From: Phoenix dactylifera
Lineage: Eukaryota > Streptophyta > Magnoliopsida > Arecales > Arecaceae
Assembly (NCBI RefSeq): GCF_009389715.1
Contig: NC_052397.1
Span: 14,456,129-14,520,128, forward strand
DNA length: 64,000 bases
Direction of reading: 5' to 3'
The position numbers and the translations under genes were made by a program. Of this stretch, positions 1 through 44,833 are shown one piece after another; the first letter of the stretch is position 1, and each line of letters begins with the position of its first letter. Below the pieces are notes generated by a model. That model ran no database searches. It had not been told where the DNA came from and saw only the letters and a program-made list of their open reading frames with translations.

Positions 1-703
1 AGACCTGGTTTGGGTTGGGCTAGGGACCTATTTTTGGGCTGAGTTGGGTCTGATTGGATTTGTGGGCTGGTTTGGTTTGGGCCCGAGATCTGATTTGGAC
101 CTGTAATCTGGTTTGGTTCATTTGGGCCTAATCTGTGTTGGGCCACAATTGGTTTGGGTCTAAAGAATTCTGATTTTTGGGATCTAGTTTACTTATTCTT
201 GGATCTATGAACTTAGGAGTTTAGGGGATTGGAATTAGTTTAAATTATGTTTCTTAATTAATTAAATAATTAATATTTATGTTTAATCAGGGGTTCGTGA
301 TATCTGTGGCAGGGATTTTTAAGCGAGCCCAGGTAGGTAACCTTGCTCAAAGTATGATTTACATGTATTATGCATATGTGTATGATTATTTCCAGCATAT
401 TGATATGTTTTATATCCTTGGCATCATTATTATTTAGAAGCATGTTTTTGACTGGAAATCGATCATCTGAAAATCTATTATGTAGATATTGGTTTTGAAA
501 ACTTATGTTTATATTAAGTTTGATTGTTGGAAATTGTGGATGTGATTTTGGAGACCGCGTGACTATTGTCTAGGATTCCCGCCAATAGGGTGGAAACGTT
601 GGCCCTGTCGACTTGTATGAGGAACTAGTTCCGGCACTATGGGGTGTTTTGGCTCTGCGGAGCATGCTCTGAGGAGCAGAGATTGGGCACCCTGGGGTGC
701 AGC

Positions 704-711
704 ACTGCGGT
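704..711. repeat. Left target-site duplication of the hAT element
   Basis: ACTGCGGT directly abuts the left inverted repeat. The identical octamer at 2187-2194 abuts the right inverted repeat. Joining the outer flanks at one copy gives a continuous LTR sequence. Confidence 0.9.
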
Positions 712-918
712 TAGGGCTGGAAGTGGGCTCGGGCCGGCCCGAAGCCCATCGGGTCGGGCCGCCTGCGGGCCGGGCTATGGGCCCGGCTCTCTGCCTTTCG
801 GGCCGGGCTCGGGCTTAATCATTCAACCCATTTCTATTTCGGGCCGGGCTCGGGTATTTCATTGGCCCGGCCCGGGCCCGTCCAAGCCCGAGCCTATTTC
901 CAGCCCGACGCGGGCCAG

Positions 919-1000
919 TCTGCCGAATCACGAATGCCTTAGCCCGAATCACGAATGCCTTAACCCGATTGCCGAATGCCTCAGCCCGAATCGCAGCCGA
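919..1000. repeat. Short tandem repeat inside the hAT element
   Basis: About three and a half copies of a 21-22-bp unit built on 'CCGAATCACGAATGCCTTAG' lie between the left GC-rich subterminal zone and the captured REF6-like segment. Later copies diverge. Confidence 0.7.
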
Positions 1001-1079
1001 GTTGCCATTAGGGATTTTAGATTTGCAGCCCGAGGGATTTGCAGAGCAGGCCAGCAGAGGCGGCGCGGACGAGCGGTGG

Positions 1080-1545
1080 ATCTCCTCCTTCATGAAGCGC
1101 AGCAGCGAGCCCTTGGCCCTGGACACCCCCCGCATGTTCCACGCGGTCTCCCCGACGTTGCCGGCCTCCTCCTCCTCCAACCCCCGCCAGCGGCGGGCAG
1201 CCCCAAGGGGGGCGAAGCCGGAGCCGGGCATGTCGTTGGCGTACTCGACGGAAAAGGGCTTGTCGACGCAGGCCTTCCAGAAGAGGGTCTCGATCTCGAG
1301 CGGGGAGAGGAAGCTAGCGGCAGTCTTCTTGGCTTTCTTGAGGTAGGCGCGCTCGAATTGCTTGGCCTTGGTCTCGAATTGCTGGAGCGTGTAGTGCTCC
1401 CCGCTCTGCCAGACGGGCTTCTGGATGGGGCGGGGTCGTCGAGGGCAGAACCCGATCTGCTGCTGGTGGGTGGCGAAGGTGGGGGGCTTCTTGGGGTTGA
1501 GCTCGTGGGCAGCGAAGGAGCAGTACAGGTTGGCCAGCCCCAACC
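1080..1545 (-). pseudogene. Captured fragment of a REF6/JMJ705-like histone demethylase gene
   Basis: The minus strand encodes KKPPTFATHQQQIGFCPRRP, then QKPVWQSGEHYTLQQFE, LSPLEIETLFWKACVDKPFS, VEYANDMPGSGF, VGETAWNMRGVSRAKGSLL and RFMKEEI. This is the stretch between JmjN and JmjC of the REF6/ELF6/JMJ705 H3K27 demethylases. It stops just before the catalytic JmjC core, so no Fe(II)-binding residues are included. The stretch is open, and an ATG at 1576 (within the U-box fragment, in another frame) opens a 253-codon frame running to 815. It is a gene fragment captured by the hAT element; the parent gene is not in this window. Enzyme activity is not expected. Confidence 0.8.
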
Positions 1546-1559
1546 AAAGAAGCCCGTTT

Positions 1560-1932
1560 GGATGGTAGGTGAACATGGAGCAGATTGTTGAGAGTCGGTG
1601 TCATCTGGCGTCACACTTCTGAAAAGCTTGGAATATTTTCTCATAAGATGCAATAAGTAAGCCACAATGGATTCCTTCCTATTGTCTTCCTCAGCGCAGG
1701 CTCTTTCAATCAGCTTCCTGAGAGCTCTTCTCTCAGTAAGAGCTGCTCTAGAGGATGTAATGCCCAGCTTTAAAACAGCTTGGTGGAAAATTTCAAGTTC
1801 AATGCCATCGTTGGAATCACCATTAAATTGTTTTTCCTTCTGAAGCAATGTGATTACTTCCTCACCTACTTGCTTCTCTGATGGATCCAAAGTAAAAACA
1901 GTGCCCTCCAGCTGAGCAACAATCTCCATGAT
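1560..1932 (-). pseudogene. Captured exon of a PUB45-like U-box E3 ligase gene
   Basis: The minus strand encodes VAQLEGTVFTLDPSEKQVGE, then LEIFHQAVLKLGITSSRAAL, TERRALRKLIERACAEEDNR, KESIVAYLLHLMRKYSKLFR and SAPCSPTIQ. This matches the N-terminal region of plant U-box/ARM proteins of the PUB45/PUB6/PUB7 type, ahead of the U-box, which is absent. A consensus acceptor (ttcttgtcag) precedes the exon at 1933, followed upstream by about 90 bp of intron-like sequence. Near 1560 it joins the REF6-like segment in a different frame, so the two are not a fusion protein. Identification is from recognised family sequence, not a search. Confidence 0.75.
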
Positions 1933-2186
1933 CTGACAAGAATATGCGAAAATATAATCTTCAGTAAACAAGAAACGTAAACTTTGTCAAAGATAGATAC
2001 AATTAGATGGATATTCAAAGCCAAACGGGCTGGCCCAAACAGGCCTGGGCCGGGCTCGGGCCGGGCTCGGGCCACTTTCCTGTAAAATTATTCGGGCCTC
2101 GGCCCGGCCCGAAGCCCGGAAGATAATTTCGGGCCGGGCTTGGGTAGGGGTGTGGCCCGGCCCGGCCCGGCCCACTTCCAGCCCTA

Positions 2187-2194
2187 ACTGCGGT
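2187..2194. repeat. Right target-site duplication of the hAT element
   Basis: ACTGCGGT, identical to 704-711. The perfect match suggests that the insertion is not very old. Confidence 0.9.
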
Positions 2195-2789
2195 GCAGGG
2201 CTCCATTAGGAGCAGAGTGTTGACACTTCGGTATGACCATGCCACTGGGTGATGTGGCCGTAGTCATGCAGTTTGATCTGTGGATTATGTTATGCGTGAT
2301 GTGATAGACTGAGATGGTATATATATATTACTTGAGTATCGGATTGGTTTGCGGATCATCATATTTATCTTGTGCACATGACCTGTAGTTACATTGCATA
2401 TGCTTTAATACATGTTATCGTGACTTTATGCATGTTGTTACCTACTGAGCTGTTGTAGCTCATACCTGTTTTTGACATAATTGCAGGAGATGATTGATGG
2501 GGGATTCGGGAGGAGAGGACTTATGACACTGGACATAGATAGATTTAGATTCATTTTGTCATAAGTAATTGATCTTGTAAATAAATGTTATCAACTTTAT
2601 TTGAGACATTTGAAATTGAATTATTGATTTGATTATCATAAATGATAGATTTTTTAGTATTGATATTGTGATCTGATGTTGTGACTTGAGTGTCTGATTA
2701 TTCAGCCTTGCACGCCCGTGCGGTCCGCCGTGCGGGTGTGCGGCGTCTGGCGCGTCCCGGGCCTAGGTTCGGGTTCGGGGCGTGACAGT

Positions 2790-3074
2790 GACAGCAGAAA
2801 TTTGTATACTGAAGAAACCAAAGCCAAGGAATCAAGAGGGAGGAGGAGGAGAAGAAGGTGCATGTCTGATTGATACCTGTAATAAGAATTAAGGAGAGGA
2901 TGAGGAGAAAATGACACGACAGACTCGCTTCCTCCTCCTCCATGTCAAAGCTGCTATCATCGAAGAGAAGAAAAGAAGAGGAATAAGGTTGCAAATGAAC
3001 AACTATGATATCCTCCTGACAGAGTGTGTTTCTCCTTAGATCTATCCTCTGTTCTTCTCTTTCTTCATTTAACA
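2790..3074 (-). pseudogene. Relic copy of the receptor-kinase first exon and its intron edge
   Basis: The segment is a close copy of 12450-12720, the region holding exon 1 of the intact receptor kinase. On the minus strand an ATG at 2943 opens MEEEEASLSCHFLLILSLIL followed by ITG and a donor (CAG|GTATCA) at 2876. The intact gene has MSEEEAGLSCHFLFILSLIL in the same place. The rest of the gene is missing because the LTR at 1-2789 abuts the intron. It is a broken remnant of a tandem duplicate. Confidence 0.8.
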
Positions 3075-3625
3075 GTCCATGAAGCTGCGCGTCTGCTTGT
3101 TCTGATCACACGATGTGCAAGACCCATGGTTTTTTCCATGTAGTTCATTTGACTGACCACAAAATTTGAATTCTCAAGACGAACACAGAGTCAATTTCCA
3201 TGTCGCTTTGCATGTTGACAGGTTCTCCCTTTTGACGGATCGAGCATTGCTGCATTAATGTGTGAACCCATGCTCACCACATGGCCGTGCATACAGATAA
3301 TCGCAGCTGCTCGATTTACAGCGGTGCACCAAGATAAGAACTTGATCAATGGAGACCACAGCAACGAGCAGTTGTGATTAGTTGTGCGCACAGTCATACG
3401 ATATAGAGTATAATTTCTCGCTGGTACATATGATGGCCAAGATTGGAGCTTGCTTTTTGAATGTTTGGGACTCTGAATAGGAGAGGGGAAGATTTTTACT
3501 GGATTTTGTATTGGTTATTGGTGAGAGAGATCAGAATAATGAAATTTTAATTAGTGGTCATCTTTTAATAATATGAAAAGAAAACATTAAGATATATTGC
3601 GCATCACTGCCTCTTACAGGAGTTT
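3075..3625. repeat. Duplicated flank block R1, copy 1
   Basis: Noncoding block upstream of the relic exon 1. It matches 4640-5210 and 14610-15275, sharing for example 'acccatggttttttccatgt' and 'actggattttgtattggtta'. Small indels separate the three copies. Its place next to an exon-1 copy is the same as in the intact locus, which supports duplication of whole loci. Confidence 0.8.
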
Positions 3626-3967
3626 AATACTTGTGTGATGTGAATCTCAAGCCCACTAACGACCTCTTTAGATGTTTGGAGATTTTATCAGTCAGAAGAA
3701 GCAATTAAAAGAGATTAAAACTACTGATGATCAACACATAATTTTGTTTTTAAGGATAGCTTAACTATTTTTCAAGGTGAATTATATCATTTTTGAAAAC
3801 CAAAGGTTAGTTGGGTAAGCAGGGAACCCAATCTCTATGAGCTACTCCATTTCCAACATAATTTCAAAACAAAACTACCATAGAAAATATTTTGTTGATA
3901 ATAAGATGCAGATTAGCGTCATTGGCAACAAGTATTTCTACTTGTAAATGCTATCCAACTTGTGCTA
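3626..3967. repeat. Duplicated flank block R2, copy 1
   Basis: It matches 16505-16862 over about 340 bp, sharing for example 'agaagcaatt(g/a)aaagagattaaaact' and the end 'gctatccaactt'. In the intact locus R1 and R2 are separated by about 1.2 kb of extra sequence, whereas here they touch. Confidence 0.8.
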
Positions 3968-4226
3968 TCTCCAACCGCCTGGCCCGCCCGAACCGGGTCC
4001 AGTCCGAGATCACCTCATCCAAACTAACCCCTTCCATGAACTCGTAGACCAGAAGCTTCGTTGAATCCCGGTCCGACCGGCCAGCACTTCCATCTCCACA
4101 CGGAACTCCCTCTCTCCCCCTCCCTCCCACCCTCTTTGCAGCTTCTTGACCGCCACGTGTCTCCTATCTGGGAGAACCCCCCCTGTAAACCACCCCGTAT
4201 CCCCCTCGCCCGATTACCATATCCTT
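3968..4226 (-). pseudogene. Truncated receptor-kinase kinase-domain fragment
   Basis: About 260 bp matching 9065-9377, the start of the kinase domain of the intact receptor kinase, from the region after the P-loop (GRGGYG) to the alpha-C/beta-5 area. One internal stretch of about 54 bp, corresponding to roughly 9162-9215, is missing, and the reading frame is shifted elsewhere as well. No LRR part remains. It abuts block R2 on the left and a zinc-finger-like piece on the right, so it is the end of a second decayed tandem copy. Confidence 0.85.
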
Positions 4227-4347
4227 GGAGGTGACAAGTGAGATTAAAAGCATTCCCACAATTCATCTGGCAGATATTGCACCAAAAGGATCCTATTGGT
4301 TTGGTGGTGGTGGTCGCATATTGCCACTCGTTTCTATAACAAAGCAC
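4227..4347 (-). pseudogene. U1/matrin-type C2H2 zinc-finger fragment joined to the kinase fragment
   Basis: The minus strand reads KPIGSFWCNICQMNCGNAFN followed by LTCHLQG. This fits the first three ligands of a U1-type finger (C-x2-C-x12-H). The second histidine would lie just past the point where the sequence switches into the kinase fragment (about 4224-4227, shared bases 'ccatatcct'). This stretch has no counterpart at the intact kinase locus. Short length makes the family call tentative. Confidence 0.45.
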
Positions 4348-4389
4348 CGATATGAACTCTTGATGGACCTGTAGAAACGAGCGGTTGTG

Positions 4390-5210
4390 ATTGACAGTAT
4401 ATATAGTCTCATGGCATGCGCGGTGTGGGATACATTTTCTCCTTCTTTTCCTCCTATGGTGCCAAAGTTATTAAAGTTATGGGACCAAGTAGGGGGGGTC
4501 GAGAAAAATTAGCACCGATCGTCATCAAACCTATCCCAAGCAAACAACCCTCCATGGGTTCCATGCTGTGCCTCTTCCCTTTGCTTGGCTAAGAGTGTCA
4601 AACACGTTGTCTCTTGTTGCGGCTGTCTATATGAACCATATGTCTCTTGTTGGACCCATGGTTTTTTCCATGTAGTTCATTTGCTTAGCTAAGAGTGTCA
4701 AACACGTGTTGGATTCTCATGATGAAGTCAAAGTCAATTTCCATGTCGCTTTGCATGTTGCTTGTTTCCATAGCGGTGCACCAAGATGAAAGCTTGATGA
4801 ATAGTGCCCACAGCAACTAGCAGATGTGATTAGTTGTGTGTATAGTCATATGGTGCATGCAATGTAGGATATAATTTCTCATTGATAGGTATGATGGTCG
4901 AGATTGGACCTTGCTTTTTGAAAGTTTGTGACTCAAAATAGGGGAGGGAAAGATTTTCACTGGATTTTGTATTGGTTATTGGTGAGAGAGATCAGAATAA
5001 TGGAATTTTAATTAGTGGTGATCATTTTGACTTTAGTTAATAATATGAAAAGAAAACATTCAGATATATTGGATTGGTACACATATGAGGCCACTAAAAT
5101 TAAAAAATAAATACATAAAGGCAAAAAGAGATGCCATTTCAATGCTTTATAGATGTGTAGCCATATTTGATGCAAGTAATTAGTTGTCATTGAGCATCAC
5201 TGTGACTTCT
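4390..5210. repeat. Duplicated flank block R1, copy 2
   Basis: Second copy of block R1, matching 14393-15275 and including the extra left part 'gggaccaagtaggggg ... ttggctaagagtgtcaaa'. The right part (about 4930-5200) is the best preserved. Here R1 follows the kinase fragment directly, so the LRR region and exon 1 of this copy have been lost. Confidence 0.75.
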
Positions 5211-5219
5211 GAAGATTAA

Positions 5220-5345
5220 TTTTTTTGCATGCTTGCTTTTCCTTTCAGTCACTGTGACTTCTGAAGAATTATGATTTGAAGCAATTTAAAAGTGATTCTA
5301 CAACGTTTTGCTTAATGAATTAGGTCATCATGTGCTCCTAAGTGT
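5220..5345. repeat. Duplicated flank block R3, copy 1
   Basis: It contains 'gcttttcctttcagtc' and 'aagtgattctacaacgtttt ... aattaggtcat'. These recur in the same order at 18860-18890 and 19240-19300. A short internal direct repeat 'cactgtgacttctgaag' occurs twice here (5204 and 5253 area). This is the right limit of the duplicated unit on this side. Confidence 0.6.
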
Positions 5346-8472: not shown

Positions 8473-11400
8473 TCAGCCTTCACCTCCTCCTCCACCACCG
8501 CCGCCGGCGTCGCCGCCATTGCTGTAGATACTAAGCAGCATGGCCAGCACCACCCTCATGTCTGGCCTCGCCTGTGGCACCTCTGCCGTGCATCTCATCC
8601 CTACCCTCAATAACTTACACATCTCAGCCAGCCCCTCCACCACCTCCTCCTCCTCCTCCTCCACCGCTGCCGCCGCCATCACCGGCACCATCGCCCTTCT
8701 CAACGCCATGCATCCCTCCCCTGCCACCCTCCTCGTCCACTCCACCAAACACTCCTCCCCTCCATCCACCGCCCTCCTCCCCGTTGCCAGCTCCATCGCC
8801 AACACCCCGAAGCTATACACGTCGCCCCTTGTCGTCGCCCGCCATGTATGCCCATATTCCGGCGCCACGTACCCCACCGTCCCCGCCACCACCGTGCTCA
8901 CGTGGCTCTCTCCGGCCCCCACCACCCTCGCCAACCCAAAATCCGTCACCCTCGCCCGCCCAGCCCGGTCCAGCAAGATATTACCCGCCTTCACGTCCCG
9001 ATGAACCACGGCCGGCCGGCACTCATGGTGCAAGAAAACCAGCGCTCGGGCCACCCCAACCGCTGTCTCCAACCGCCTGGCCCACCCGAACCGGGTCCAG
9101 TCCGAGATCACCTCATCCAAACTCCCCCCTTCCATGAACTCGTAGACCAGAAGCTTCGTTGAACCAACCAGGCACCAACCATACAAGGCCACAAGGTTCG
9201 GGTGGGGCCAGCCGGACCCGGTCCGACCGGCCAGCACTTCCATCTCCGCACGGAACTCCTTCTCTCCCCCTCCCTCCCTTCCTCTTTGCAGCTTCTTGAC
9301 CGCCACGTGTCTCCCATCTGGGAGCACCCCCCTGTAAACCACCCCGTATCCCCCTCGCCCGATTACCATATCCTCGGAAAAGTTCGCCGTCGCCGTTACG
9401 ATGCCGTCATAGGTGATCAGCGTTCTATCCAAACGGAAGACTTTAATTCCATCCGAGGAAGTTGTGGAGGAGGGTTCGGATGTCGACATGGATGACGACG
9501 ATTCCGCCACGTCGCTTCTCCGCTTGACGCCGTCTAAGAGGAGGACGTCCGGGTCGGGAAAGTCGGGAATGGCGTCGACGACCGGTGAACGGAATCCGAC
9601 GCATAGGACGAAGGTGAGAACGCCGCTGAAGGAAAAGATGACGGTGAGGGCGAGGAAGACGTAGAATGCCACCTTCCGAGAATCGCTCTTGTGGCCGGAG
9701 GTCCGGCCGCCGGTCGTCGGCGAGGGATTGGCGCGGGCGTTGGGGAAGGAGATGAGTGGGTCGCCGAGGAATGAGTCGTTGTCGAAGGTGGCGATCTGGC
9801 CCGCGACTGGGATGACGCCGGAGAGGAGGGGGTTGAAGGAGACGTTGAACTTGCTGAGGTCGGCGAGGCGGTTGAGGCTTGCTGGAAACTCGCCGGAGAA
9901 GTTGTTGCACGAGAGATCCAGGTTCTGTAGGCACTGGATCCCGCCGAGCTCCGGTGGGATCGGGCCGGAGAAGCTGTTGTTGGAGACGTTGAGGGCGACG
10001 AGCGGGAGCCGTCCGATCTCCGGCGGCAGACGGCTGGAGAGCTGATTGATGTTGAGATGGACTAAACTAAGATTCCTCATCTGGCCGATCTCCGGCGGGA
10101 CCTCGCCTGAAAGCTGGTTTCCGGAGAGCTGGAGGTAGCCGGAGATCGTCAGCGTCCGGAAGGGCGAGGTGGAATTCAGGCACATCGGGAAAATCCCATG
10201 CCCCTTGAGAAGCTGATCCCAAATAAACTGGCAGTTCTTTGTCGTCATCAGGACGTAGGCGAAGCTGAAGGGCGGGTAGGAAGCCGGAATCCACCGCTTC
10301 ATGGCCAGGCACTCGCCGGAGCCGGCGATGAGGCTGTCGCGGCGGTTGATCTCGAATGTCGGGACTGGATCGCTCCCAATTGTCGATATCTCCGGTGGAA
10401 TTTTCCCCGTGAGACGGTTGTTGGCGAGGTTCAGCCACAGCAAGCTACTGCAGTTCCCGATCTCCCGCGGAATTTCTCCTTGGAGATTATTATTGGCTAG
10501 CATGAGCCAGAGGAGGGACTTTAACTTTCCGATCGTCGGAGGGATCGAGCCGGTGAGTTCATTGAAGGAAAGATCGAGTGCTTGGAGTTCGGTGATGTTG
10601 CCGAATTCCGGCGGGATGCTTCCATTGAAGTTATTATAGGCAAGAATCAAGTATCTGAGGCTTGGCATGTCGGCGATCTGGACAGGGAGATTTCCGGTGA
10701 AGTTGTTGTAGCTGAGGTCTAATCTTGCAAGGTGCGGAAGCTTGAAGATGCCGGAGGACTCCATGCCGCTGGTGTACTGATTAGTATGCAGGACCAAGTT
10801 TCTCAATGTTGTGAATTGCCCGAAAATTTGTTGGATTTCACCGCCAAAATAGTTCTTGCTGACATCAAGGAACACCAATTTGGAGCAATTCAGCAGCTCG
10901 CTGGGGATGTCTCGATCAAAACTGTTTTTGCCTAGTATGAGTGTTTGGAGCTGTGAGAGTGATCCGATGCCGGAGGGCACCCTGCCGGTGAAGGAATTCC
11001 CCCAGAGGCTCACATGGTTTAGCTTCGAGCAGTTGGCAATCGAATCGGGGAAGACTCCATCGAAACTATTCGCCGAAAGGTCCAAGATTTCGAGCCCGCA
11101 GTCCGATCGGAAGCTCTCTGCAGAGAATTTGCCGGTGAAAAGGTTCTCGGATGCCACGAATTCCCTGAGCTTGGAGAAGCCATCCCAGATTTCTCCATAG
11201 AACTGGTTCGAGCTCAGGTCGAGGTACTGGAGCTTGGGGCACTGATCGATGCGGCCGGTGATCTCTCCGGTCAAGTTATTTGTTGAAATGTTGAGGGTGA
11301 CGAGGTTCTCGCATATCGCCGGGAAGTTGGACTGGATCTCTCCGACGAACCGATTGATGCCAAGGTCGAGCGTCTCCAAATTGTTCAGTCCGGTCAGGTT

Positions 11401-12604
11401 CAATTCTCCATCGAGGAGGTTGTGGGAGAGGTTGAGGTACCGGAGGTTGACGCAACTGTTGAGGTCGCTCGGGATGCGGCCGCCGATGGTGTTGGCTGAG
11501 AGGTCAAGGAACGCGAGCTCGGTGAGGAGGGAGAAGCTGGGGAAGATGGCGCCGGAGATGTTGGAGGCGGATAGGTCAACACGGGTGACACGCCCGTCGC
11601 CGCTGCAGCCAATGCCGAGCCAGTTACAGGGGGAGGTTTCGGACTCATTCCATTGAGCATAGCCACCTCTGTATATGAGGTTGTTCTTTTGGAGGAAGTC
11701 CTTAAGCTGAAGCAGGACTTCCTTGTCGCTCTGTGGAGTCTCTTTGGCAGTTATCGCCCGACCTGCAGCAGAGTAGAACGAAAGTACTAGCAAATAAGCT
11801 CTCGCAAACAATGAGCAGAGCAGAGCAGAGCAGAGGGATATCTCCCTACAAAGGATTCAGAAAGTTTAGATATTTCAGAAGGCTGATAAATGCTTTTCGT
11901 CAAAACCAAAACCATTTCGAAACCCAAGAAGGATTGAGGAAGGATAGCCTGAATACTAGTTTGGGGGTTAACCTTGGTCTTCTAAAGATCATTGAAGTAG
12001 AGAAAAGAAGGATTTGCGTCCAGGAAGCCCCAAGAAGGTTGTGGTTAAAGCATGAATTATGAGGAACATGAACTCAAAATAAAAAAGAGATGGATTAGAG
12101 GAGGTTGTAAGAAAGAGATGGATGAGATCTGGGACTCTTTAATGTTCGGAGCTCCAAAGCTATATGTCTTGGAAACATAGCGAAAAAAGAAAGAAAGCAG
12201 AGAGACATCAGGTTGTGAACAGAGGAAGATCAGAACGACAGAAAATTAGGCTTTTAAACCATGCTACAAGCAAAATTACTTCCCTAGAAAGTAGTTTTAT
12301 GGTAGAATTTTAATGCTGAATTGGCTTCATAACATAAAAATTTTGTTGAAAAGGGAATCAATATCGATCCACGAAGCTCTGACAGAACTTCTTCTCATGA
12401 AACTTGAAAAGCCTGTAATTCTTGCGCCCAAAGAAATACAGCATCCACGGTGACAACAAAAACTTGTGTACCGAAGAACCAAACCCAAGGAATCAAGAGA
12501 GAGGAGGAGAAGAAGAAGGTGCGTGTCTGAATGATACCTGTAATAAGAATTAAGGAGAGGATGAAGAGAAAATGACACGACAGACCCGCTTCCTCTTCCG
12601 ACAT
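8473..12604 (-). CDS. NILR1: LRR receptor-like kinase, At1g74360/NILR1-like
   Basis: Plasma-membrane LRR receptor kinase. Exon 1 is 12604-12538 (ATG, MSEEEAGLSCHFLFILSLIL...); the intron is 12537-11763 (CAG|GTATCA ... ctgctgcag); exon 2 is 11762-8473 with TGA. The phases join to ITG-RAITAKE, and the large exon has no usable ATG of its own. The product is about 1118 aa. Residues 1-23 are a signal peptide. LRRs span about 80-480 and 560-675, with an island near 486-559 containing GSGECLAMKRWIPA, diagnostic of this family. The transmembrane segment is about 720-746. The kinase has P-loop GRGGYG (824-829), catalytic Lys 845, HRD (943-945), DFG (963-965) and APE (989-991), so it is an intact RD kinase. 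The tail is Glu- and Gly-rich. In Arabidopsis NILR1 mediates nematode-triggered immunity; the same role here is inference. Confidence 0.93.
12538..12604 (-). other. NILR1: Exon 1 of the receptor kinase (signal peptide)
   Basis: This 67-bp coding exon encodes 22 residues plus one base. It supplies the only ATG in frame after splicing, and the hydrophobic core CHFLFILSLILITG. The Arabidopsis protein has the corresponding hydrophobic stretch followed by VTG at the same junction. The copy at 2943-2877 preserves the same exon and donor, which independently supports the model. Confidence 0.85.
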
Positions 12605-14392
12605 GTCCCAGCTGCTATCATCGAATAGAAGAAAAAGAAGAGGAATAAGATTGCAAATGAACAACTATGATATCCTTCCTCCTGACAAACAGAGCTTCTC
12701 CTTCCTCTGTTCTTCTTTTTCTTCTATATTCTTTTGTAAAGCCTCGTAGAGAGCATGGCACACAATTAAGCATAGAATATTGGTATTAAGGAAGGAAGAA
12801 TGCTGGTCTTTCTTTTCCTCTTACCATTCTATAGTTTCTCTTGAAATGTCAGCATAACATGAATACGGTATAGTAAAAATAATAACAAAGATTGTTATCT
12901 CAGTAATCAATGATATTTTCCTCTTTTTTTATCAATTATAGATCTCTTAGTAGGTACTACATATATGGCTTGACTTTTTAAATTTGGTTTTTAGTGTGTC
13001 CCGGTCTCCTTAGAGTCTTAGGCTGAATAATCTTTCTTTCTTTGGTTCCTAGAGGAAGGCCGCCCTTGTTGACTGTGTCCAAATTTGGGCTTTGGTTGAG
13101 CCTTGACGAAGAAAGTTAGGGGAGAAGAGCGTACGTGGGGTTAGGCTTGTCCCCATGGTTGTCCCTTGTCCGGGTAAAAGCTTCTACCATTCACATTAGA
13201 TAGAATAAGGGTTGAAGTTATTGATTTATATGATATCTAAATTCTTTTTAGTCTTTTGTCGACCGATAATTTAATTTAATTAACCTTTTTTTATGAGCAT
13301 GATGTGCAGATGAAGTTTTAGAACATTCTTTATATTATTTTTTTCTAAAAAACTAAATATTGTTATGTAAAATTTAAGGTTCCCTTTTACTTTGATGGCT
13401 CCATTACATCACAGGTGCTGCAAAAGTTAAAATAAAAATCATAGTTGTAGCTGTCATTACTTGGCAATAATATCCTGATTTTGAATAGCAATGACTATTA
13501 ATTTGAAGATAATTAACCAATTTATATAGACTTCTAGTTGTATGAATTTGACTATGACCCATAAATCTCTATTATGTAAATTTTTAAAAAGAATGTAGCC
13601 GTTAAAGTATGTGTCTCGCTCAACTTAGGTTATATGGGGAAAGAGTAATACTACCATGCCACGTGGCATGACATACGGGAATTGGTGTATTGCATGATCA
13701 ATGGTTGAATGCTAAACAAGGGTTGCTGATCTAGAAAATTTTATGTACAAATTGGAAGCCCAAAGCATTTGCGCTTGGAAAATTGATTCACTACAAATTA
13801 GTAAAAGCACAAGGAAGAACATGTTATTTATTACTAGAGTGATGCCTTGAAAGTTCATGTCAAACTACTTCTCAGTAGTTTCCTTGTTGTTTTCTCATAC
13901 TTAACCCATACATTTCTTGTAGTTTTCTCAGTAGTTTCATATCCTCTCACATCCTGCCTATCTTTGGTTGGAAAATTAACTTTTTTTCCCTCTAATGATG
14001 ATCAATATTCCAAAACATTATCTATGGTATACAACCCTTCTCCCTTTTTATTTTCTCCCTCACTCACCCCCCATCCAATTCAAATGAAAAGTTAAAAGAG
14101 GGAGAGAGAACAGTAATAACATGTATTCCAATCTACCAAACTTTGCAATCTTAAAGTGCTTGAAGGAGAATTATGACATTTTGGATGGGGTTGTAATAGA
14201 ATAAGACCACTTTAGAAAGGCTTATTTGCAAAAGGTGGTCAATGGAATAGATCATGGTAGGGACCATTGAACATAAGGTTTTCTCTAATGTGGGTCGTTT
14301 TCTTAATGCGGCATTCCACAAGGGATCATCATCCAAACCTGCATCAAGAAAAGGACACCATCCAAGACTTGAAAGAAAGCACCCACCACCTC
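12605..14392. other. Upstream region of the receptor kinase
   Basis: 12605-12720 is the presumed 5' UTR and proximal promoter, rich in TTCTTC on the plus strand, and is conserved in the relic at 2944-3040. No clear TATA box was chosen. From about 12750 to 14390 I see only AT-rich sequence without a gene. Confidence 0.45.
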
Positions 14393-15275
14393 ATTTCCTC
14401 CCATGGTACCAAAGTTATTCAAGTCATGGGGCCAAGTAGGGGGAAGAACAAGAGAAAATTTCCCTTTGATTGGCTAAGAGTGTCAAAAATGTTGTCTCCT
14501 TCTTGTGACTGTCCTTTTAGAAACCTACATGCTCTTGGGTGCAAGCAAACCCCTCTCTCACTCCATGAACCATTGCTGATTTGAGAGGATAGATTGGATC
14601 TTTTGTTCATTTCACGGGTAATGAAGCTTGCACGTGTGCTTATTCGGATCACATGATGTGTAGGACCCATGGTTTTTTCCATGTAGTTCATTTGACCGAC
14701 CGCAAAATTTGGATTCTCATGACGAAGGCAGAGTCAATTTCTATGTAGCTTTGCATGTTGAAAGTTTCTCCCTTGTGACGGATCGAGCATCACAACATCA
14801 ATGCATGAACCAACCTTGTAAATGGCCACAGGTTACCCTACACTGCATGCACCACATAGCCGTCTAGTAGTACACCAATATGAGAGCTTGATGAATGGAG
14901 CCCACAGCAACGAGCAGATATGATTGACTGTGTGAATAATCTCATGGTGCATGCAGTGTAGGGTATAATTTCTTCACTCGTAGGTATGATGTCAAGGTTG
15001 CAGGAAGCTTACTTTTTGAAAGTTTGGGACTCTTGAATTGGGGGAGGGGAGGATTTTTACTGGATTTTGTATTGGTTATTGGTGAGAGAGATTAGAATAA
15101 TGGAACTTTAATTAGTGTTCGTTTTTACATCAGTTATTAACTAAAATAAATAATAATAATAATAAAAAGGGCAAAAAGAGATGCCTCAATGGTTTATAGA
15201 TGTGTAGCCATACTGGATATGCAAGTAATTGGTTGTCATTTGGCATCACTGCATCTTAGAGGAGTTTAATACTTG
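14393..15275. repeat. Duplicated flank block R1, copy at the intact locus
   Basis: The longest of the three copies. It matches 3075-3625 and 4390-5210. The 4390-5210 copy shares both ends of this block, so it fixes the block's limits. No coding sequence. Confidence 0.8.
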
Positions 15276-16504
15276 TTCTAAAAGTTATCATGTGGATCAA
15301 ATTATATCAAGTTTGTCACATAAATAAGGAAGCTAACTTATGCTCTCTCATGTTTTTGGTGAAACTGGAAAAACTGATCATATGAGTAGAAGATGCATCA
15401 TGAAGGTATATTCATCAAATCTTAAGATGTGTTACATATCGATCTCTGCGTTTGTATTGCCGTTTGTCTGCAAGGAAAGATTAGTTCTCTTAGTAATGCA
15501 GATCATTGACTTCTTGGCTGGCTCATTAGCAGTCGAAACACCTAAAATAAGACATGGAGGATGTTGATCATGCCTAAGTTGCCTTTAATTGATCTCCTTG
15601 ACAAAATTTTATTTGATGGAGGTGCAATTAAGCAAGGCTGCTGTTTGTTTTGCTTTTTATAATATCTTCCTTGTTTTAAGTTTGGTGGCATGATGGACAT
15701 CTAATTTGAGGTTGGCTTGATGCTTTGATACAAGCTACTATAAACCTAGCCTTTTTTTTTTCAAAAAGAAAAAAATCTTTCTTTTGTTCCTTTGCTAGCA
15801 AGCATTAGGATTCTCCTTCCTTTTGATCCTTTATCTCCACTTCATTTACTTAATAAGTGGTGGCCAAGCAATCACTTTTTTCTCATATAAGACAATCGTA
15901 TGACCAATTGTGCTTCATAATAGAATGTTGGGCAGTTAACATCAAAAAGCAGAATGTTAGGCAGTTAGAAAATAATATATATACAAAATTAGTATAGCCA
16001 AAATGACAATACTAAGACAGTTCTCAAGTAACACAAAAAAGAAAAAAATAAAATTATTTGTAAAATGATAGAGGTAGCATCAATTAAAGATAAATTGAGA
16101 GAATGATATATAAATAATTTGGATATGTACAACATAGACCTTGGGATGTACCGATACCAATGAGTGATTTGGTATGTATATAAGGAAAGAGGGTAGGGAT
16201 AGACTGAAAATCATATAAGATAAAGTAGTAAGAAAGGATTTGTTTATGCTCCATCATTTAGAAGGTATAATGCTAAACAGAGCGAAATGTAGGAAAAAGA
16301 TTCATGTAGCCAACCTCAACTAGCTATTTTGGGATTAAGACTTGGTTGAGTTGACTTGAGTTGAGTATAGGGGTGAGCTGGTTCCACTGACCTCTAAGAA
16401 TAGGGAGCCAACATTGGTTATATATGCCATTCAACCAATATGCATGCCAGCTACTTTTAGAGAGATCCATGTTTTTTTTTTTCATTTTTGATTGAAAGAT
16501 AGGC
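15276..16504. other. Sequence separating R1 from R2 at the intact locus
   Basis: About 1.2 kb absent from the relic copy, where R1 and R2 touch. It may be an insertion here or a deletion there. AT-rich, no gene, no clear terminal repeats found by eye. Confidence 0.4.
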
Positions 16505-16862
16505 ATGTGTTTTGAGCTTGTGTGATGTGCATCTCAAGCCTACTAACAACCTCTTTATATCCTTGGAGATCATATCAGTTAGAAGAAGCAATTGAAAGAG
16601 ATTAAAACTGTTGATGATCAACACAAATAATTTTATTTTTAAAGATAGCTTAACTATTTTTCCAGGTAAAATATATTATTTTTGAAACCAGAGATTAGTT
16701 GTGTAAGCGGGAAAGCCAATCTCTATGAGCTGCTCTATTTCCAATATAATTCAGATCAGAAACACTATAGAAAAGATCTCCTTGGTTGATAATAAGAAGT
16801 AGATTCGCTTTATCAGCAAGCAAGAATATCAATTATTCCTATTCGCAAACGCTATCCAACTT
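16505..16862. repeat. Duplicated flank block R2, copy at the intact locus
   Basis: It matches 3626-3967 over nearly its whole length and ends at 'gctatccaactta'. After it, the two loci diverge: the relic goes straight into the kinase fragment. Confidence 0.8.
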
Positions 16863-17267
16863 AGGGCTTGCGTGCACCCTAAAATCAATATTCAATAATT
16901 AACTTATTTAACTAATATTAATAATTAATTTACATTCAATAATTAACTTCATATAATTACATTAAATGATTAACTTATTTAATAAATCATTTAAATAATT
17001 AGTTAGCATTTAATAATTTTGGGTGCTAATATGCAGGATTGGAGTTGCAAAGAGCAGTCATTGTATTATAACAATAATTTGAACATTCATGTAAAAAGGA
17101 GCTAGAATGATGACCTCAAGCCCTTCATAGTATAATTGAACATGAACTTGTGAGAGCCTCCACTGGTTGATTGACTTGGCAATGCCACTTTTGATTCAAT
17201 AGACATAGATCCAATTTTACCAATATCATTTTGATTTTTGGATGGATGGATTAGAAAAAAAAAATTT

Positions 17268-17268
<1 letters not shown>

Positions 17269-17303
<35 letters not shown>
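17269..17303. repeat. (CT)n microsatellite
   Basis: About 17 uninterrupted CT units. Confidence 0.95.
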
Positions 17304-17306
<3 letters not shown>

Positions 17307-17361
17307 GAATCATCAAGATGTCAGGCACCACATATTATAGAAGAAGATAATACAAACAATT

Positions 17362-17518
17362 CTAATCAAAAAAAGATAATAAGAACCATGGAGTTTTGTT
17401 CGAGAGAACCACGGGTCTGTTCCTTCTCTCCTACACTATACTTTTTTACTGATTTCGTGGGCTATACCCACATACATCGTGTGTGAGTCCCCATTGTACC
17501 AAAAAAACAAAAAAAAAA
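17362..17518 (+). mobile_element. Strongly 5'-truncated LINE tail
   Basis: A 157-bp insert ends in an A-rich tract at 17500-17518. It is flanked by AGATAATACAAACAATT (17345-17361) and AGATAATACGAACAATT (17519-17535), a 17-bp duplication with one mismatch. The frame SPTLYFFTDFVGYTHIHRV resembles the C-terminal end of a plant L1 RNase H region. The tail 'tgtgtgagtccccattgtacc' is shared with the insert at 56001-56170, so both come from one LINE family. Confidence 0.7.
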
Positions 17519-17535
17519 AGATAATACGAACAATT

Positions 17536-18859
17536 TTTTGGTGGGCGAAGAACATAAGAAACAAAGAAAGTAGTGAGATCTCACGGTATGCATGTTGTGA
17601 CTTGCTTACTGGATGGCTGGACAAAGGATTGAATACTAACAAACAAATCAATCAAAGGAGATTTCAGGTACTTTCTAAAGGAGGGCTGGTCAAGGATTAG
17701 GGCCTGCTCCAAATGCTTTCTTTATAAATAAAAAAGAAAAAGAAAAAAACAGCGGCTCTAATTGACCTTGGAGTCATTCCAATGTTTATCAAGAAAAAAA
17801 AATCCTGTCAATTGTAGAGAGCCAGCATGAGTCCATGCTGGCGTAGAAGATTTCGATTTTTTAAGTTGGTTTGTCGTGGAACATATGTCCATAAGAAGAG
17901 CAAGAAAAAAATTAATTGGGTAGCTTAACTATAAGACAAAAATTATATCATGAAAGACTAAAATTATATCGGTAGCTTAATATAAGGTATAGAATATAGC
18001 TTCCATGTAAGCAGTACGCTTGCTGACCCACTCATCTACATCTCACTTCCGGTTTTCTCCAAAAGATAGATTTATCTCTGATTGGATATCCCTTGTCTCT
18101 CTTTGTATAGTAGCCACCATGATCACGGGGACACCTATGGCATGTACCTAAAGTAGGGGTGGCAATTAAGACAAGGGCGGACTAGATATGAGCAAGGTTA
18201 TATACAGGATAGGTCAAAAATTCATCAACTCGAACCTGAACTGTCGTACCCCAGATCCGTGACATAATATAGCCATGTTATCGAGAGGTACAACCCAAAC
18301 ACCAGAGCAGTTTAGGGCCTTTTTTCAGTGATCAACTCGGATTCATAAATCAGGTCGATGGAACCCTATATTGGGATCCATGAGGCTGTTTAAAGAGAGA
18401 AACAAAGAAAAGAAAGAGAAACAGAGAAATAAGAGAGAAAACAAGAGAGAGAAACAAGAGAGGGATTGCTCTCTCTTCTCCTCTCCCTTCTTTCTTTTTT
18501 TCTTTCTTAGCAGAACAGTGGAATAAGAGGCTAAACCAATGACTGTAATCATGGTGGGGGTCAACACCGGAGGGTCGCCAATGTAATCAGAGGTCCAGCT
18601 GCAAGTGGTGGCGGTCAGGACTGGCGGCCGAAAACAGGAGAGGACGATCAAAATAGAGGCAATTTTGGGGTCAGTTTGGTACGAATAGTATACATGGCTT
18701 AGATAAGCGTGCCCAAATCAGCGGCATGTTGCTCCAAATTTCAGAAACAAAGTTTTTAGATAATCTATTCAACAAATTCTAGCAAAATTAAAGAGACGTA
18801 TTTATCTTTCATCACTCGTAATTTATTCTACTTCTTTCTTCTGATGATCAATTGTTTTG
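17536..18859. other. Intergenic
   Basis: No gene. A GA/CT-rich patch lies at 18390-18505. The string TAGGGGTGGCAA at 18154 looks like a hAT terminus, but no partner was found. Confidence 0.5.
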
Positions 18860-19300
18860 GTGTACTTGCTTTTTCCTTCAGTCTCCATGACTTCATAGAA
18901 TAAAACATCCAGACATAAACAATTATACTAATACCCGCTTAATTGCATGCAAAGTGAAGCTTATTTTGTTACATTTAGTGAAGTTTGATTTGAGACCATA
19001 TTTTCTTTAGGGAGTATGACAACCTTCAGCCATATTTTGTACTGACAAATCTACCCAACCAGCATGGCAACAAAACTTCTTTTTTTTTTTTTTGAAATAA
19101 AAGGGAGTAGAAACCAACCCAACTTCATTGCAAAGAGATCAAAAGAGAACATGGTGACATATTTGGTGCATGAATATCTGCAACTCAAGAGTGATAAGTG
19201 AACCTAATCAGAAACATTTAGACATCAAGTGTATAAGACTCATGATTCGAAGAAATTTACAAAGTGATTCTACAACATTTTGCGTAATGAGTTAGGTCAT
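18860..19300. repeat. Duplicated flank block R3 (split), intact locus
   Basis: 'cttgctttttccttcagtc' at about 18864 and 'aagtgattctacaacatttt ... agttaggtcat' at 19257-19300 correspond to consecutive pieces of 5220-5345. Here they are separated by about 350 bp. This sets the right limit of the repeated locus. Confidence 0.5.
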
Positions 19301-22300
19301 GATTCTCCAATGATCAATTTCTCCTCTTCTTCGTAGAGGTTCCATGTTCGATCTTGAGTGCTACATGGATGTCGACAATTTACATCAATTGGCATACTAA
19401 AATTTGTGTAATGACTGTTGTGTGATTCCAACATATAGAAGTTCCAAATTTAGGACATGGTTTTATGCATAGTACTACTGTAGCAATTTCTACATGAGCA
19501 CTCAATTAGTTGTAACATAGTTTGAAAGCAAAATCCACAGCAAATCAAAACAACTGCATACAAATTTTTATATGGACCACTAACTGCTTGGCCATATTCC
19601 TCCAATGGGGCCTCTTGATACCCACCAAAATAAAGTATTATGAAAGGATGTGCCATGCCTGTCAGCTTTGACCAAGAATTTGATTAACTAGGCACTTTTA
19701 GACTCCCTTTGGAAGGAGGATAGGTGGAAGGTTACCTCTTCCAAGCACCTCAAAAGGTCATGGAATAGCTTTATTCCTCGAATAATTCTATTCTTTTGGA
19801 ATGGTGGAATAGAATTATTCTATGTGATAAGAAAATTTTTGCTATCTTAATTATAATTTTGCCTCTATTGTTCTTATGATCAAATTCAAATAATCATGAA
19901 AACCGATGCGCTCTCGCTCTTCCACTTATCTCTCCAATCAAACAACGATAAATAATTTATTTCATGAAATAGACTATCCGAGATGGGATAATCCTTCAGA
20001 AATTATGCACTCCAAACCAAATGCAGCCCAAGGAAAAATCCCTGTTTAATGTTTGGAAAATCTTGTTTCCTTTTCTTACCTTCCAACATTCCAACCCTTA
20101 GCAAGCACTTTCAAATTGAAGGATTGAAGTCTTTGGAAGACTTGGTTGAGTCCCACCGCATTCTTTGAAAGCTTCCATGGAAAACTCGTGTTTAATGGAA
20201 AAAACGTAGTAAGTTATACGTTCACACTGCCGTGCGACCATTTAGCAGTGCTAGTGTCAATAAAGAAATTTAAAAAGAAGAAGAAGAAGAATAAAGAAAT
20301 TTAAAAAGAAGAAGAAGGACAAAGTTAGCATCGCCCAAATATTGGACTGGAATATGTGATATCATGTGGTGATGTAACTCTCAAATCTCATGGCATCGAC
20401 AAGTCCGTGACAGATAAAACCATGTAGAGATATTATAGATATTATGTTTTGAATATCCTACAGAGCCTTAACATAGAATATTCAAGGTAAATAATATCTC
20501 TAATATATGCAGCCTAGGAATATTGCATCTGATGTTGATTTCTATTATGTTTGATAGCATTGATTCTTGACATGTCTCTTAAATAATTCAAGAATGTGAC
20601 AACCATTCTCTCTTTCAAAGATGCAGCATCTTGGCAATTAAGGTTGATACAATATGAGCCAACCAGTCTTAACTATTTAGTGTTTCTTACTTCATTTGCT
20701 ACATAGTTGCATGGTGAAACCTAGAAATCAAATAGGAAGAGATATGGAAGACGGGTCTAGAAAACAATGCCTAGAAAACTTCATCATCCAACACGTGGAT
20801 GAAAGGTGCATGTTCGTGTTTCTGAAAATCAAAAAGAAAAAATTTTATATTCTATAACTAGCATGGTCAGATTCATTACTAAATCCTAATCTTATTGAGA
20901 TTTTTACTTGTATGGTCAGAACTATGTTAAGTTAACTTGAGTCTTAGGCTCAATATACAAAAGTTTGTTTTTTAGTAAGAGATGTTAATGTTTTTATCTT
21001 ATAGTAGGAAAGAGAGTGTGTGGTTAAGAGGGAGAGAGTTATCCAAAGAGAGCTGCAATAGTTTTGGTGAGACAGTCTTTAAGGTACAGAGTTTTCATAA
21101 GACTTATTTACATGACAGGAGCCAAACTCATTTTTTCGGTCTAAATTTTTTTCGTATAAATTTATTTGTCTCTTCTAATTTTTTGTCTTCCACTACTGTT
21201 GCTTGATTTGATTGGTGTTTATTTTAGATCCTGGACCGACATATGTGATCTACATCGAGTAGCATGTCGTTCTATACACATTTAATGTCCTCAAGTACAC
21301 ATTCAAGCTCATTGATGTTCAAGGTAGAAAGCAGGCAGGTAGGCAACTCACTCTCTATGGATCCCTTGGTGTGCTAGGCTTAGGAGCTCATGTCTAGCTT
21401 TCTTGCGAATATTAACCTGTCCTTCAGTGTTTGCCCCAATGTACAAATGACACTAAGATGCTAAGCCAAGGCGTTGCAGAAGGGATTAAGTGTACAAGAT
21501 AGAACATTGGACCCTAAGCCAACTGACACCTTCCATGCAACTAGACTAGATAAAGGCATTAAGATGCATATAGCGTGACATTCGTCGCAGGTGTTGTCAA
21601 TATGCTAGACAAAGCATGACAATTCCGAATTAAAATCCATTACCCTAATCAAAGGAGCAGCACCTTAACTCATGACAATTTTTTTTTCCATAGAAAATAT
21701 TTTATGTATCCAATTTTTTGCTGTTCACAGAGGTGTATTATGTTCTAGTAGAAAAAGATTTGGACAATGATGATGGTGTGGTGCTTGTTACAACCATTAG
21801 CATCCAACTAACAAATTTGGATCCTAGGGAACAGATGAGAAGAAAAGAAATGATGCTTAAAAACAAAGTGATCGAAAGAGATATAATATCAGAATACAGC
21901 AAAGGATGATTTGATATAAGACATGCATAAGTTGAACTGATAAAAGACATGCAGAAGTAGTCGGCGATTTTGAGTAATCCATCAAAGAGCTCTCCAGACA
22001 AGCCCAAGAACATTGTTTTGATTAAAACAGGCAAATGTAGCTGCCTGTCTCTGAAACATGCTGATAAACTTATTTTTCTCTGGATCGATGTAGGTGATGA
22101 TGTATTGATTGTTCGAAAATTCTCTCAAAAGTAGTAAACAACTGCTAATCTCCCAAAAATGTTGATTGTTGGAAAAAGATTGGCATGTTCAGAAAAGAAG
22201 AGCTGAGGAAATTATTCAATGTCTAGGATTTTGGATCAGTATAACAGATTTCCAGCAAAAAGGAAAAATCTTTACAATTGGAAAGATCCTTTTCCCCTAT

Positions 22301-40751: not shown

Positions 40752-42139
40752 TGATAGGTGCATGAAAATGTACCTTTTAATAAAATTTGATTACGCCCAA
40801 AGAATAACGCGGCTATCGCAGTATATATTGGGGTGTCGATTCCACAGGGAGAAGGTAGGAACACTAAAAGGAACTACAAAACTAAAAAGAAATATCAAAG
40901 CAGTAAAATGTGATGTGAATGTTTAAAAGTAAATTGACAATTAGATTGTAGTAGTGAAAAGATGTGACCAGAATTAATGGCAGCAAAGCATCGGGAATTC
41001 CTCACTTGAATCAGGTAATTCCATTCATATTTGATCCATTGGATAACTCAATTAGAGATCATAGCACCAGATTCTCTAATTGGAGGATATAGCATTACAA
41101 TCAAAATATTTAGTGGTAATTCTAGAAAATCATTCTCCTCTTTTAAAACCAAGGATTGTTATCCTTTTAGACTCAGATTCAAAGACAAAAATATACCCAA
41201 TGGCAATATTTCAGCAAAAAATCACACTAACTGGATAAACAATCAAATCTAGATATAATCAAGCACCTCAACAATTCTATAGAAAAAGACATGGCTGAAT
41301 CTATGAAAAGAATAGGTTCAAGATTATTCCAACACAAGAAAGATCTATTGATGAGAAATGATAAACAAAAATTGTATCAACATGAGAATCTATTACATAG
41401 ATCAAATATAAATAAAACTACCATCATCCAAGCGAGTTCATCCCTAGCTTCACCAAAGAATTAGCTCTCCATGAATTTTTGGCTCCTCTTGATGATTTCT
41501 TTGTAATGCAGTCTTTTTTCTGTTTAGAACGGCGTGCTCCCCAAGTATATATATAATTTTGGGGCTAAAAACCCTAGGAAACACAACTTAGACACGTTTG
41601 CATGTATTTTTCCGACTTTACCCTCGAGCACCAACGTCAGCGTGAGGTTCGGGAGACTCTCCAGATCGCATCTGATCTTCAAATTTTATGTTCTTATAGT
41701 CCTTTGAAAGCTCTGGAAGTCTAGTTTCCAACAAAATTTGAATCATCTCAATTGGACTTCTGTAGCTCCCGAAATCATCAAAATACTACACAAAGGTCTG
41801 ATCTGTCAGGGCCCAGGCTGGCGGTTTAGGAAAACCTAACTTTGCAACTTCATAACTTTCTCTCTGGAGCTCCAATTGACCTGATTCTTGATGCATATGA
41901 AACCTCAACATGTCTACTTCATCTCCACCAAGTTTCATTTCATTCGGACTGCAATGGAATATTCAATCTTCTTAACTCCATTCCTACAATAAAATCACCA
42001 AAATCAATTAAGACTTGGACACTTTGTGAAGTAAAGTTCAGATTAGAAAAATATCATAAAAATATCCAAATCATGCTTAAGTCTTAACAATTTAGCCTAA
42101 AGTGGTAGTATTAAAAGGTACATTTTCATGCACCTATCA
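40752..42139 (-). repeat. Athila LTR, left (3' in element sense)
   Basis: Begins TGATAGGTGCATGAAAATG and ends in the inverted form CACCTATCA. 41528-42139 matches 47735-48346 almost perfectly. Confidence 0.88.
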
Positions 42140-43455: not shown

Positions 43456-43475
43456 CTCTCTCTCTCTCTCTCTCT
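43456..43475. repeat. (CT)n microsatellite inside the Athila element
   Basis: About ten CT units in the noncoding 3' region of the element (42140-43940). That region holds poly-T runs near 42770-42805 and 43003-43020 and no recognised coding part. Confidence 0.85.
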
Positions 43476-43993
43476 AATACTCACCAATGCGTAAATACTT
43501 AAGTTTGAGAGTTCTCTAATTGTATGCATTGAACATCCATCAAACCACAAGGCTTAGATGCGTGCATAAAAAAAGAATTCAAAGGGTGTCTTAATAGTGT
43601 GACTAAGATAGAAAAATTGACTCCAGCAAAAATACTCTGTAATCATTTGTTTTTTTTTAAAGCAAATTCATGCAAAAACATATACACATGGGCTGCCCTC
43701 CCCCAACTAAAACATGACATTGTCCTCAATGTATGGAAATAAAAGCATAGAAAACAAAATAGGATAGAGGTCACCTGATTAGCGGAGCACAAATCCATGG
43801 TAAAAACAGGAAGCTAGCAAACCTGAAAATTAAACTAAGGAAACCAAACGAAATAAAACAAAACAAGCAAAAACAAAAACTGAAACAAAGACAAAATAAA
43901 GAAAAACAAAAAGAAACAAGGAATAAGAGAAACGTACCTGCATGGGCATAGCATCACTGTTCGTAGACGGGGTCCATGAGAAGAATATCTTCC

Positions 43994-44825: not shown

Positions 44826-44833
44826 ACCTTGAG

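Follow-up and report, generated by a model that had tools for sequence, protein, structure and literature searches.

A date palm Pack-hAT element with fragments copied from two donor loci, probably through template-switching repair

Family-wide capture of gene sequences at the DNA level is known from the Pack-MULEs of rice, and MULEs are set apart from hAT elements by other TIRs, duplications of 9-11 bp and another transposase. In the hAT superfamily, the short TIRs follow a T/CAGGG-type consensus. Gene fragments were reported in 11 of 903 Ds-related elements of the maize Ac/Ds system (PMC3260210), and PMC8903248 describes a Pack-PIF that contains pieces of two genes. The original prediction for the present locus held that capture is "less often shown so cleanly" for hAT elements; the available parts of PMC2528002, PMC3260210 and PMC8903248 document it better than that. 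Judged by title, no paper on gene fragments in date palm hAT transposons was found. Here we describe a 1475-bp element of Phoenix dactylifera that is almost certainly a non-autonomous hAT transposon (Pack-hAT) with DNA from two donors.

The window, that is the whole 64-kb stretch analysed, corresponds to G000:C6:14456129-14520128, and the genome searched was the 773,078,369-base assembly of 2391 contigs. As had been predicted, an element of 1475 bp occupies window positions 712-2186. It is delimited by a perfect 17-bp TIR (TAGGGCTGGAAGTGGGC at 712-728, present as the exact reverse complement at 2170-2186) and by a target duplication of 8 bp, likewise perfect (ACTGCGGT). The two captured gene segments both read on the minus strand, in the single orientation foreseen for them. 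The features of the locus are as follows.

1..2788, unstranded: host repeat that received the insertion, putatively a downstream LTR; it also reaches upstream of the window, and the hAT element and one target copy are excluded from it
704..711, unstranded: left copy of the target site duplication ACTGCGGT, which is single at empty sites
712..728, plus strand: left TIR, 17 bp, perfect; genome-wide TIR site counts are above control
712..1080, plus strand: left hAT arm (element 1-369), its first ~200 bp common to nearly all members compared
1078..1534, minus strand: captured REF6-like fragment (JmjN-JmjC linker), donor G000:C11:7052180-7052639, 96%
1535..1558, unstranded: filler of ~24 bp that separates the captured fragments; its right edge could shift by a few bases
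1559..2021, minus strand: captured PUB45-like fragment, donor G000:C10:5642292-5642752, 98%
2021..2186, plus strand: right hAT arm (element 1310-1475), from family comparison
2170..2186, minus strand: right TIR
2187..2194, unstranded: right copy of the target site duplication ACTGCGGT

The arms of the element are GC-rich and carry GGGCCGGGC-type subterminal repeats. When 8-bp duplications were sought around inverted pairs of at least 8 bases spaced 200-6000 bp apart, the element was the sole case in the window. With pairing relaxed to 5 bases there were 33 such places, some within the GC-rich arms, and ten base shuffles gave 7-17. A repeat scan and BLAST inside the 64-kb window found neither donor nor a second family member. 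Two interior ORFs of the element were scanned with Pfam and returned zero families at E up to 1; these ORFs thus hold no transposase domain.

Other repeats were observed elsewhere in the window. A retrotransposon at 41528-48346 has 612-bp direct repeats that are 99.3% identical (41528-42139 and 47735-48346) and an internal 586-bp direct repeat (43995-44580 and 44835-45420). A frame on its minus strand contains reverse transcriptase, RNase H and integrase domains, arranged in Ty3 order. Positions 2785-5331 and 9062-19303 contain blocks repeated at 74-89% identity (for example 3060-3565 and 14602-15126), which look like old local duplications, since broken up.

The joined flanks with one copy of the duplication, 197 bases in all, were used as an empty-site query. 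All 40 scored places (of 326 candidates) matched the whole 197 bases at 97-99%. One of these empty sites, at C6:14449548-14449744, lies on the same strand about 7 kb upstream. This partner differed from the window repeat at 19 positions (1.22%) over 1552 aligned bases without gaps, the insertion point included, the alignment ending where the fetched stretch starts. Both repeats end in GGGGCGTGACAG, and other copy pairs about 7 kb apart occur among the empty-site matches listed. We infer that the window repeat and its C6 partner are the two LTRs of one retrotransposon. If they form such a pair, the hAT insertion would be younger than the 1.22% divergence between them. The window element and its sibling described below differ at 15 of 877 captured bases (1.7%), more than the LTRs do; a cut-and-paste lineage can predate its present site.

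Allowing at most one mismatch, the TIR was found at 248 forward and 266 reverse sites in the genome, compared with 23 and 16 for the reversed control pattern. The first 100 of these 514 sites included 35 with a convergent neighbour within 30 kb; the resulting sizes were 669-1636 bp in 23 cases, 4.6-6.2 kb in eight and 12-27 kb in four. Forty-nine members were compared. The left ~200 bp and the right ~150 bp were common to nearly all of them, and the interiors were private or shared by few. Left out of this comparison were L009, L011, L020, L025, L029, L035, L043 and L048 (no end pair within the stretch retrieved) and L022 (a pair with 3 duplication mismatches); L009/L033, L011/L034, L025/L036, L029/L037, L020/L035 and L043/L069 are the same places. 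The 8-bp duplication was perfect in 43 of the 49 members and had one mismatch in six, end pairs at part of the loci having been selected with at most 2 duplication mismatches. The duplication test without that selection comprises 19 members chosen on TIR pairing alone, and here the duplication was perfect in 16 and had one mismatch in three. Siblings lacking the 8-bp duplication, which the original prediction had named as evidence against itself, were therefore not encountered. Over the 49 members, AAACGG occurred on average 0.02 times in the left 200 bp and 0.43 times in the right 170 bp, and GGGCCGGGC 3.5 and 4.5 times, respectively.

Twelve members exceed 4 kb and have a central region in common. 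L036 (C11, 5438 bp, duplication CTAAGGAT) contains an uninterrupted hAT transposase frame of 660 aa that matches PF05699 (6.6e-34), PF14372 and PF02892 in Pfam (together BED, hAT-like RNase H and hAT dimerisation domains) and Hermes chains in the PDB. Its ends match the window element at 88% (1-214) and 87% (1310-1475). Shorter frames only were present in L033, L034, L037 and L046. The window TIR TAGGGCTGGAAGTGGGC fits the T/CAGGG hAT type, and by its 8-bp duplication, its TIR type and the transposase in elements with the same ends the window element belongs to the hAT superfamily. The predicted hAT identity is thus backed by same-ended elements of ~5 kb including L036, by the 8-bp duplications of the family and by the empty sites. 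The search for siblings and an autonomous partner, suggested with the prediction, yielded a full sibling (L002), a large family and the ~5-kb relatives, among them L036 with its transposase frame. A Pack-MULE was rejected, as an 8-bp duplication and hAT relatives were found instead.

Some observations concern individual members. L036 (G000:C11:20786797-20792234) and L069 (G000:C10:5802371-5807808) are both 5438 bp long and have the same similarity profile but different perfect 8-bp duplications, as if an element with a transposase had transposed recently. Long members are not alike in the stretch to the right of the transposase, and these too may carry foreign DNA. L013 (C1041) and L015 (C10) have equal length and reverse-complementary duplications (ACTGCCGT and ACGGCAGT), and are possibly one insertion assembled twice.

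To find the donors, the whole element was compared with the genome. Among the 40 scored of 424 candidates were the element itself and one full sibling, besides many family ends; the partial matches formed two sets. Element positions 367-823 matched C11:7052180-7052639 (96%) and, less closely, a locus on C7 (87%). Positions 849-1310 matched C10:5642292-5642752 at 98%; further matches were at 88% on C14 (854-1310) and at 78% on C280 and C78 (851-1231). The two unlinked donors expected from the prediction were thus both located, on different contigs (C11 and C10), and alignment of the interior with its parents, also proposed there, gave 96% for the REF6-like and 98% for the PUB45-like donor. The names REF6 and PUB45, which we take to apply, come from the domain layouts of the donor frames and from a PDB match, itself weak, with rice Os05g0196500 (4igo, E 7e-4).

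In the C11 donor frame, JmjN lies at residues 63-96 and JmjC at 268-318, and the captured GC-rich part covers about residues 108-261 between them. The predicted demethylase segment is accordingly REF6-like in origin (C11, 96%), but consists of the linker only, with neither JmjN nor JmjC. In the C10 donor frame the U-box occupies residues 182-251, and the captured exon stops at about residue 143, ahead of it. The PUB45-like piece holds an exon from upstream of the U-box (~1559-1932), and ~1933-2021 is likely the 3' end of the preceding intron, judging from a CAG at the presumed splice site. Of the U-box exon with an intron edge that had been predicted, the exon and a likely intron edge therefore stand and the U-box does not.

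Between the REF6 paralogue and the donor there were 25 synonymous and 4 nonsynonymous differences. Tested against this pair, one element copy had 6 synonymous and 10 nonsynonymous differences (p 0.0017) and the other had 6 of each (p 0.040), changes on the donor branch included. The same test was flat for PUB45 (17:14 versus 5:4, p 1.0). The constraint on REF6 that is evident from the donor-paralogue pair is thus lost in the element copies, and the captured pieces are probably passengers without protein function. Several other readings of the interior were rejected. Against a capture of functional domains, Pfam sees the U-box, JmjN and JmjC in the donor frames and no family in the element ORFs. 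An in-frame chimera is not formed by the 298-aa minus-strand frame at 1090-1986, which reads PUB45 in frame and then REF6 out of frame, and the sibling has a deletion in REF6. Capture through mRNA disagrees with the likely intron sequence in the PUB45-like piece. A match of the PUB45 frame to an antibody chain (phmmer, E 0.12) was taken as chance, and a scan of viral contigs with the REF6-like piece found no relative.

BLAST of 9.9 kb around each donor found no family arm, the best arm matches being 11 bp. GC-rich flanks native to one of the genes, the second finding that would have told against the prediction, were thus not seen; the arms are those of the family. The REF6 donor stretch does contain two sites that resemble the TIR, at no more than 5 mismatches in 17 (L032, positions 1466 and 5802), one of them about 0.66 kb from the captured part. 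The site whose sequence was inspected has no GC-rich arm.

The full sibling, L002 (C10:15545390-15546802, found again as L038), is 1413 bp long and has the same REF6-filler-PUB45 order. It is flanked by a perfect 8-bp duplication of its own, ATTACAAG, different from that of the window element, and carries a 35-bp deletion in REF6 as well as a left-arm deletion. For REF6, differences numbered 9/418 between element and sibling, 16/453 between element and donor and 12/421 between sibling and donor; the corresponding numbers for PUB45 were 6/459, 10/458 and 10/458. The two copies have a state in common that neither donor nor paralogue has at six positions in REF6 and four in PUB45 (element positions 450, 542, 611, 613, 789, 795, 853, 889, 1080 and 1141, of which 853 is near the filler edge). 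The shared states unlike donor and paralogue indicate one capture before the two copies split. Distances to donor and sibling were 3.53% and 2.15% in REF6 (ratio 1.64) and 2.18% and 1.31% in PUB45 (1.66); the counts are small, and the ratios are compatible with entry of both pieces at about the same time. Elements with only one of the two pieces were absent among the 40 scored of 424 candidates. Since L002 combines the same chimera with its own 8-bp duplication, the two insertions show, as far as sequence can tell, that the chimera moved after capture.

L007, L010, L012, L013, L024 and L046 have their own sequence beyond element position 369, the point at which the window element passes from the left arm into REF6, 3 nt (GGA) belonging to both. 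At the right junction, donor identity stops at 1310 and family identity starts at 1310 in L007, L008, L024 and L036 and at 1311 in L012, an overlap of 1 nt. Apparent microhomology is thus short, 3 nt on the left, 1 nt on the right and none certain at the inner joins. The filler (element 824-847, ~24 bp) matches neither donor. When it was compared with the arms of the other 47 members, its best score was equalled by 4 of 100 shuffles, and it could still be a hAT-derived remnant as a fusion model predicts.

We propose that in a member of this family the native middle was replaced by a REF6-like piece, ~24 bp of filler and a PUB45-like piece. A break inside the element would have led to aberrant repair synthesis, in which the template was switched to two ectopic loci with little or no microhomology as a guide. 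Both pieces would have been copied from genomic DNA, the donor loci being left intact, and were probably captured in one event. One or more cut-and-paste moves of the chimera would have followed, the transposase presumably being supplied by the ~5-kb relatives with the same ends. Likely intron sequence and intact donors indicate copying at the DNA level, and skipped donor stretches, direct joins between two sources and little microhomology are as expected of template-switching repair. The element is non-autonomous, its interior comes from host genes present elsewhere (L031/L032) and it was mobile after capture, as a Pack-hAT should be. The probable route is template switching in gap repair (fork switching being treated as one form of it), and to the reading as a whole (a Pack-hAT, two-donor copying through template-switch repair and later cut and paste) we assign a probability of roughly 0.85.

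Fork stalling with template switching, taken by itself, is a rather unlikely source of the chimera. The multicopy, interchromosomal capture fits what PMC8277862 reports in its available part, and the REF6-like piece is GC-rich, but the junctions would be the same as in gap repair and no feature here separates the two. Fusion of neighbouring insertions, in which two related hAT elements insert near a donor, lose their inner ends and move the DNA by their outer ends, would have to occur in two rounds and is judged unlikely. It was proposed for Pack-CACTA and extended to Pack-hAT, with the two-gene Pack-PIF as an example (PMC8903248, available part), and both the weak likeness of the filler to a family left arm and the TIR-like site 0.66 kb from the captured REF6 part would suit it. 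However, the 9.9 kb around each donor lack a family arm in BLAST, no single-donor intermediate was seen among the scored candidates, only ~24 bp without a recognisable arm separate the donors, and in another member, L055, two sources meet with a 3-bp overlap.

Separate captures of REF6 and PUB45 at different times meet no obstacle in the six and four shared stem changes, which are few; the agreement of the donor-to-sibling ratios for both pieces and the missing intermediate among the 40 scored of 424 candidates make such a stepwise history improbable. GC-rich, low-complexity arms could yield spurious pairs, and the element might then be an assembly artefact or a chance inverted repeat around gene debris. 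A second copy with its own duplication, an empty site in the partner repeat and a large family reduce this chance almost to nothing. Two-donor copying during template-switching repair of a Pack-hAT remains the reading that we prefer.

Captures were also sought in other family members. For Pfam, 29 ORFs (one or two each) were taken from 23 representative interiors; six interiors had a match at E <=0.01 and 17 had none. The matches were CNNM in L012 (below the curated cutoff), DUF620 in L019, IPK in L023, Xpo1 in L027, WRC plus Xpo1 in L055 and RINGv in L062. Genome searches were made with L055, L008, L023, L012, L019 and L052, a non-random set of which five were picked for genic ORFs or Pfam matches, and all six interiors matched other places in the genome. 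Positions 1-410 of L055 matched C2 at 97% and 408-861 matched C13 and C52 at 99-100%, the match coordinates overlapping by 3 bp. L008 was identical to a PPR gene on C14 over 178 bases (100%); 215 donor bases are skipped inside an open frame, and the PPR donor stretch stays open in frame throughout its 701 bases. The loci retrieved were those of REF6, PUB45 and PPR, and the remaining donors are presumed: C14 for L023 (98%, four element copies), C20 for L012 (93%) and C3 for L019 (95% over query bases 2-729). With the best paralogue of L019 the match was confined to two blocks; the captured stretch thus seems to include an intron, which likewise speaks against capture through mRNA. Two pieces of L052 matched one C34 locus at 94 and 97%, 428 bp apart.

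Host-like fragments, some presumed, were thus present in 11 of 23 sampled short members, namely the window element, L008, L012, L019, L023, L028, L030, L052, L054, L055 and L062. L054 was counted because it resembles the exportin portion of L055 (91%), although its own two ORFs had no Pfam match; L062 was counted on Pfam alone, and L052 for its match to a low-copy locus that has no Pfam name. These 11 represent about eight distinct interiors, since a single IPK capture is present in three copies and exportin-like DNA in two members. For the other 12, or their group representatives, Pfam alone was used and gave no match. Exportin-like DNA was observed in L027, L054 and L055 and at loci on C458, C410, C28, C6 and C15 at 85-100%, parts of the query matching twice within one locus; this fragment seems to have spread. 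That the majority of short members acquired host-gene DNA through template-switching repair, sometimes from two sites, as an equivalent of Pack-MULEs and at a rate far above the maize Ds figure, is a proposal to which we give even odds. If true, hAT elements could be a main agent of gene shuffling in a lineage and not an occasional one.

The apparent frequency of capture is what stands out in this hAT family. Models of capture (gap repair, fork switching, fusion of neighbours) have often been judged on old, blurred junctions. Here, one assembly holds both donors, the acceptor family, a sibling, the empty site and full-length relatives. With the 100% donor match of L008 over 178 bp and the assembly resources, a family-wide survey of junctions is feasible, and would tell whether capture by hAT elements is frequent beyond grasses and grape.

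Maize Ds2 and Ds-l4 resemble the window element in their hAT ends, 8-bp duplications and interiors of ~1 kb, and likewise contain gene fragments with introns from other chromosomes (PMC3260210). The available part of that report also describes a compound Ds element with several trapped sequences, a further likeness. Its 11 of 903 elements with gene fragments contrast with 11 of 23 sampled short members here, some of them presumed. Ac/Ds elements have an 11-bp TIR, apparently a different one, and subterminal AAACGG, which is rare here, GGGCCGGGC taking its place; by the AAACGG counts the window element falls outside the maize Ac/Ds family proper. The maize Pack-hAT elements of PMC8903248 are also non-autonomous and contain DNA of host genes; their ends are shared, their interiors less repeated. 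The available part of that report favours fusion of neighbouring insertions, whereas the junctions described here fit template switching better. Hatvine-6 of grapevine, likewise a hAT, has common TIRs and transposase together with variable regions that match genes and genomic DNA (PMC2528002, available part). Its elements share transposase sequence, whereas the window element is short and without one. The window element is a clean example of a known process, not a wholly new one.
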